Below, piece after piece: positions 6,143 to 8,298 of a DNA stretch of 45,926 bases. Each line of letters begins with the position of its first letter. Position 1 is the stretch's first letter. The DNA lies in NCBI GenBank assembly GCA_030446285.1, contig JASUSC010000006.1, positions 1-45,926 on the forward strand, read 5' to 3'. The DNA is from Eubacteriales bacterium (lineage in GTDB: Bacteria; Bacillota; JASUSC01). A model generated the notes under the pieces. That model saw only the letters and a list, made by a program, of their open reading frames with translations, made no database searches and was not told the origin of the DNA. The translations under genes and the position numbers were made by a program.

Positions 6143-6382
6143 AAACCAGCTCTTTGCTTGTCTTTGAACCGGGGGCGGCAAAAAAGTTTCAAAATTTTTC
6201 GGCAAAAACTATATAATTGTTAGAAGGAGAATTTTTTGGTGGAAGGATGAAGTTTATGGGACGGGAAAAACCAGTTGGGCGGCAGGAAAGAAAAACGGCG
6301 GGGCCGGAGGGAGTTCCGTTTCCGGAGAAGAGGAGGAAACGGAAGTTTGCTCCGGTTTTTTTGTTCAGGGGGTGGAGTACCT

Positions 6383-7020
6383 GTGAAAATTAGCCCCTCG
6401 CTGGAGCGAAAGCAAACTTTAAAGACTGGTTATTCCCTCCGTCAAAGACAGGCTTTAGAGATTTTACAGAAGTCGACCTGGGAATTGGAAGAGTATTTGC
6501 AGAAGGAGGCAGTGTTAAAGAAGGTGCAAAACTTGGATCTGCCGGGGGTTGGGGCCAGGGATCCTACGGGATGCCTTCTCCTTCAGGCCGTACCCTGTAC
6601 CGGATAGCAGAAGCCTTAGTAAAATTGCAGAAGCCGTTCTTTCTCCAGGGTCCCCAGGCTCTTAAACCACTGACTTTAAAAGAAGTAGCAGTAGAGACGG
6701 GTTTGCATGAGTCAACTGTAAGCCGAGCCCTTCAGGGGAAATACATGCAAACCCCTTTCGGGATTTTTGCCATGAAGAGGTTGTTCTCCAGTGCGCTGGA
6801 GGTGGAGGAAGGGGAAGCAGTAAGCGTTGAGACGGCGCAAAAGATGTTGAGAGAACTGATCGCGGAGGAGGATCCAGCGCGGCCTTACAGTGACCGCCAA
6901 CTGGCGAGTTTGCTGGCGGAGCGAGGAATAAAAAGTGCCCGAAGAACAGTACTCAAATACCGGGAAGAAATGGGAATTCCCGCTGCTCCATGCTGCCGAC
7001 GCTATCAACAAAAGAAATAG
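6383..7020 (+). pseudogene. rpoN: Decayed rpoN (sigma-54) with internal deletions and a frame change
   Basis: Three separate pieces of sigma-54 remain in order. Region I starts at a GTG at 6383 (GGTGGAG upstream) with ISPSLERKQT and LRQRQALEILQKS. It runs straight into the core-binding motif LPGVGARDPT and CLLLQ (about 6535-6582). After a shift to another frame comes region III, with LHESTVSRALQGKYMQTP and the RpoN box ARRTVLKYRE at 6937-6966. An intact sigma-54 has about 430-460 residues; here about 215 codons remain in two frames, the first stopping at 6605-6607. About 130 residues are missing between pieces one and two and about 100 between two and three. The C-terminal piece can still be read as a 149-residue ORF from an ATG at 6571. 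The 240 bases before this gene contain one TATAAT (6212-6217) without a good -35. Confidence 0.88.
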
Positions 7021-7048: not shown

Positions 7049-7058
7049 AAAAAACATG

Positions 7059-8298
<1,240 letters not shown>

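Follow-up and report, generated by a model that had tools for sequence, protein, structure and literature searches.

Why would a broken rpoN keep a readable DNA-binding end? We analyzed a window of 45,926 nucleotides (contig JASUSC010000006.1) from the draft genome of a Eubacteriales bacterium (G000; 1.70 Mb, 87 contigs, 82% complete). At positions 6383-7020, the gene for sigma-54 is reduced to pieces. The original prediction offered two readings: the promoter-binding end might have been retained, so that it could bind -24/-12 promoters without recruiting RNA polymerase, or it might simply be dead. We consider it highly likely that 6383-7020 is a relatively young pseudogene, formed in place after the loss of the sigma-54 regulon.

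Three pieces of rpoN remain at the ancestral locus

Translated searches with intact RpoN proteins from relatives recovered three pieces of RpoN, in order, at 6383-7020, and Pfam agrees (Table 1). As predicted, the last piece lies in another frame. Region I begins at the GTG at 6383, in a frame that runs for 74 amino acids to the TAG at 6605-6607. The second piece, 24-27 residues of the core-binding domain, is in the same frame. The third piece, the DNA-binding domain, is in a different frame; it spans 6589-7005 and matches positions 23-156 of the 160 positions of PF04552 (E = 7e-49, 166 bits). The 149-residue ORF that had been proposed to carry the promoter-binding end is indeed open.

We compared these pieces to the intact RpoN of a relative (L035). 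The first gap, ahead of the core snippet, removes about 119 residues (from residue 57 to residue 177), and the second takes the alignment from residue 201 to residue 341. Thus, the predicted two internal gaps are there, but the total loss is about 255-260 residues (119 + 139) rather than about 230. Similarly, region III had been described as intact, and its helix-turn-helix (HTH) and RpoN box are readable, but profile positions 1-22 of PF04552 are absent and an arginine downstream of the RpoN box, which is universal in 100 of 100 intact relatives, is a cysteine here. Compared to a functional sigma-54, the locus has the DNA-binding domain with the HTH and the RpoN box, minus this one conserved arginine, and lacks a complete core-binding domain in one frame with regions I and III. 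The nearest solved structures are sigma-54 chains. A search of the window against Rfam gave no match, so no RNA function is indicated.

Table 1. Features of the rpoN remnant and its surroundings (window coordinates)
Feature	Position	Strand	Basis
Good GGAG ribosome-binding site of the ancestral rpoN	6374..6377	+	sequence; 5 nt upstream of the GTG
Region I (activator-interacting domain) remnant	6383..6508	+	PF00309, E = 2.6e-7; tblastn with intact RpoN
Core-binding-domain snippet (...GVGARD..CLLLQ)	about 6506..6586	+	PF04963 positions 52-92, E = 1.2e-7
Second junction, ~139 residues lost and frame change	6586..6589	+	tblastn
Open frame of 149 codons with the RpoN DNA-binding domain	6571..7020	+	ORF; PF04552
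Helix-turn-helix LKEVAVETGLHESTVSRALQGKYMQTPFG, conserved	6676..6762	+	segment score equals the mean of relatives
RpoN box ARRTVLKYRE	6937..6966	+	single change vs. ARRTVAKYRE
Intrinsic terminator of the former rpoN transcript	7058..7086	+	3' of the stop codon
gapA, usual downstream neighbor of rpoN	7291..8298	+	synteny with relatives

The remnant lies downstream of rapZ, yvcK, whiA, a gene for an MBL-fold protein, and rqcH (reverse strand), and upstream of gapA, pgk, tpiA, gpmI, and eno. The order rpoN-gapA is common to many relatives, with or without an intervening gene that we take to be cggR. Intact rpoN is found at the same locus in Thermincola (L036) and in Carboxydothermus (L057), whose gapA is 81% identical. 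Because relatives have an intact rpoN at the same position, the fragment must be the remains of the ancestral gene. In other words, as would be expected for a unitary pseudogene, the frame is broken at the ancestral locus and the orthologs in relatives are intact.

The sigma-54 system has very probably been lost

The original prediction was that the organism has lost sigma-54 unless a second rpoN exists. We found no second rpoN in the 82% complete assembly: its single match to PF04552 and its single match to PF04963 are both at the remnant. Nor did a search with PF00158 identify any sigma-54 activators (enhancer-binding proteins) in this assembly, and activators in the same genome are another feature of a functional sigma-54. 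(The only PF00158 matches were rejected as activators, as they are a LonB-like protease, L002, and ClpC, L003.) Given that neither a second rpoN nor an enhancer-binding protein is present in the 82% complete assembly, we regard the predicted loss of sigma-54 from the organism as very probable. For sigma-54 to have survived undetected, several activators would all have to sit in the missing part of the assembly.

The presence of sigma-54 and the presence of its activators match nearly perfectly across bacteria (PMC3162934). We surveyed their co-occurrence in 40 genomes from the same phylum. In 23 of the 40, rpoN is intact or nearly so (E ≤ 1.1e-53), and all 23 encode activators (best E ≤ 5.6e-66). 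None of the 15 genomes without rpoN encodes activators (best PF00158 E ≥ 1.9e-15). The other two genomes fall outside both groups: G031 has a weak match only and G033 has a fossil, which is described below. With a best PF00158 E of 9.8e-14, our genome groups with those that lack rpoN.

One of the 23 genomes, G004, has an rpoN (L028 / L031, G004:C26:1009-1505) that is split by one frameshift close to where the DNA-binding domain begins. This genome has 22 matches to PF00158, and the frameshift is either an error of sequencing or a mutation that occurred very recently.

The remaining pieces appear to be under relaxed constraint

We scored each piece with leave-one-out hidden Markov models (HMMs) against 100 intact relatives. 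Region I scores 29.4 bits, and just 4 of the 100 relatives score lower; for the core snippet (19.1 bits) and the DNA-binding part (181.6 bits), the corresponding numbers are 3 and 9. Half of the near-universal residues of the snippet are changed (3 of 6), including a proline, universal in relatives, that is now leucine. So, while region I and the core motif are present as predicted, both are degraded. Only 2 of the 38 near-universal residues in the DNA-binding part are changed, one of them the universal arginine mentioned above, and the HTH segment has an average score among relatives, as in a living protein. Of the three pieces, the DNA-binding part has decayed the least.

Two other measures also point to relaxed constraint on the DNA-binding part. 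First, it has changed faster than its neighbors would lead one to expect: its identity to relatives is 6-7 points below the expectation from the identities of gapA, pgk, and tpiA. When the expectation is based on gapA only, its deficit puts it below all 40 relatives; with gapA and pgk, it is the second lowest beside 28 relatives; and with gapA, pgk, and tpiA, it is below all 26 relatives. Second, its codon score falls 0.18 short of that of its neighbors (the shortfall is smaller in 56 of 57 intact relatives) and is lower than that of every sampled gene segment of the window.

These comparisons indicate that the remaining pieces are under relaxed constraint, as would be expected for a unitary pseudogene; the relatives compared are at most ~55% identical in the DNA-binding domain. 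Our genome collection contains no closer relatives from the same family or class, and the nearest DNA-binding domain is ~55% identical.

A probable pseudogene rather than a new regulator

The evidence of relaxed constraint at the DNA-binding part is best fit by the reading that the fragment is dead. We propose that the lineage would first have lost its sigma-54 regulon and that selection on rpoN would then have ceased, so that deletions and substitutions would now be eroding it. Region I, which faces the activators, may have relaxed first, as the activators were gone. Three observations count against a pseudogene: the 149 codons are open, the HTH has the score expected of a living protein, and the decay of this part is milder than that of the other pieces. 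However, a DNA-binding part that is relaxed and yet less degraded than the rest is what a recently dead gene would show, because its best conserved domain stays recognizable the longest. Two things explain why the DNA-binding end can still be read: conservation is highest in this part of the protein, and the deletions have mostly missed it so far. Under the pseudogene explanation, which fits best, it is not kept for a function.

Broken rpoN genes have been described before, as the rpoN-like sequences (RLS) of Neisseria (PMC3162934, PMC6755734). Like our locus, the RLS is a broken rpoN that has stayed where the gene was, and no activator is obvious in the genome (PMC3162934). The degenerate sigma-N of the meningococcus is described as being transcribed, with the protein undetected, and as dispensable for pilin transcription (PMC6755734). 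In contrast to 6383-7020, which has lost the core-binding middle but still has a readable HTH and RpoN box, the HTH is lost in Neisseria, and the RLS lacks the RpoN box as well.

Alternatively, the 149-residue fragment might be produced and bind sites resembling -24/-12 promoters without recruiting RNA polymerase, as a natural "roadblock." There is precedent for the biochemistry: the isolated 60-residue C-terminus of RpoN from Aquifex binds the -24 element, and an engineered RpoN roadblock peptide represses genes in Pseudomonas even without the native RpoN (PMC5626770). Like our fragment, the molecular roadblock consists of the DNA-binding end of RpoN and lacks the part that binds polymerase, and it shows that the C-terminus of Aquifex RpoN can act alone as a DNA binder or as an engineered repressor; unlike our fragment, whose product is putative, it was designed and was expressed from a plasmid (PMC5626770). 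The open frame, the retained HTH, and the nearly complete RpoN box would also fit a regulator. But constraint appears to be relaxed and the codon bias of the locus has been lost, even if the other pieces have decayed further than the DNA-binding part. Furthermore, translation would have to begin from the ATG at 6571, which has a weak ribosome site (AGGG, 10 nt upstream) and falls within the upstream frame that stops at 6607. Together with the faster change and the altered arginine, this runs counter to the idea that the promoter-binding end was retained for a purpose.

The original prediction had also called for a search for promoters of the type TGGCAC-N5-TTGC. Allowing up to one mismatch, the -24/-12 motif occurs 111 times, as compared to 95 times for a reversed control, which is not a clear enrichment; nor are the sites well placed, as the two exact matches are both inside ORFs. 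With the sigma-54 regulon gone, there is no obvious target for the fragment to repress. Finally, among the relatives examined, we saw no ORF with only the RpoN DNA-binding domain that bears the marks of a kept gene; those that we found are frameshifted, scrambled, or cut. We therefore view a natural roadblock as quite improbable, and we similarly doubt that the DNA-binding end of sigma-54 has outlived the regulon as a small, independent DNA-binding protein.

Also very improbable is that both gaps are assembly errors and that rpoN is intact in the organism: although we worked from a draft genome of 87 contigs, the pieces show degradation that does not depend on the gaps (in universal residues, codon bias, and rate), activators are missing genome-wide, and the large ORFs that we sampled around the remnant have full-length or nearly full-length matches in Pfam.

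We conclude that this is ordinary gene decay and that nothing here points to a new regulator. As a decaying pseudogene, the locus gives a clear snapshot of the loss of sigma-54, with the activators gone and the factor half eroded. The snapshot comes from a class that has this genome as its sole representative in the collection.

Other rpoN fossils in the phylum

Two other genomes have fossils of rpoN at this locus. In G033, the fossil is ~200 nt between whiA and gapA (L029:1381-1578, G033:C10) and contains a core snippet ending in ECLLIQ, followed by the RpoN box through the stop codon. It thus retains almost the same core snippet as 6383-7020, along with the RpoN-box end. In the sole PF00158 match of G033 at E ≤ 1e-20 (L178, G033:C17:4612-5115), the GAFTGA motif is replaced by GRPVGV, consistent with a loss of dependence on sigma-54. 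In G058, rpoN adjoins gapA and is full of stops; two activators remain, one of which has an intact GAFTGA, unlike in our genome.

Both fossils resemble 6383-7020 in that rpoN is decaying in place beside gapA, through deletions within the gene and changes of frame, but they are more decayed, with ~200 nt left in G033 and the stops in G058. Intact rpoN is found in other genomes from the families of G033 and G058, which implies that these decays are independent. Together with these older fossils, our locus indicates that the loss of sigma-54 is recurrent at the same place in the genome.

The jump from the snippet to the RpoN box in G033 resembles the jump right after CLLLQ at 6383-7020. The similar junctions possibly reflect a shared deletion hotspot, or they could be due to chance.

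G286 (L160, G286:C170) has no PF00158 match at E ≤ 1e-20. Its rpoN-like frame is divergent, is ~397 codons long, and includes one TAG; it is perhaps another decaying sigma-54.
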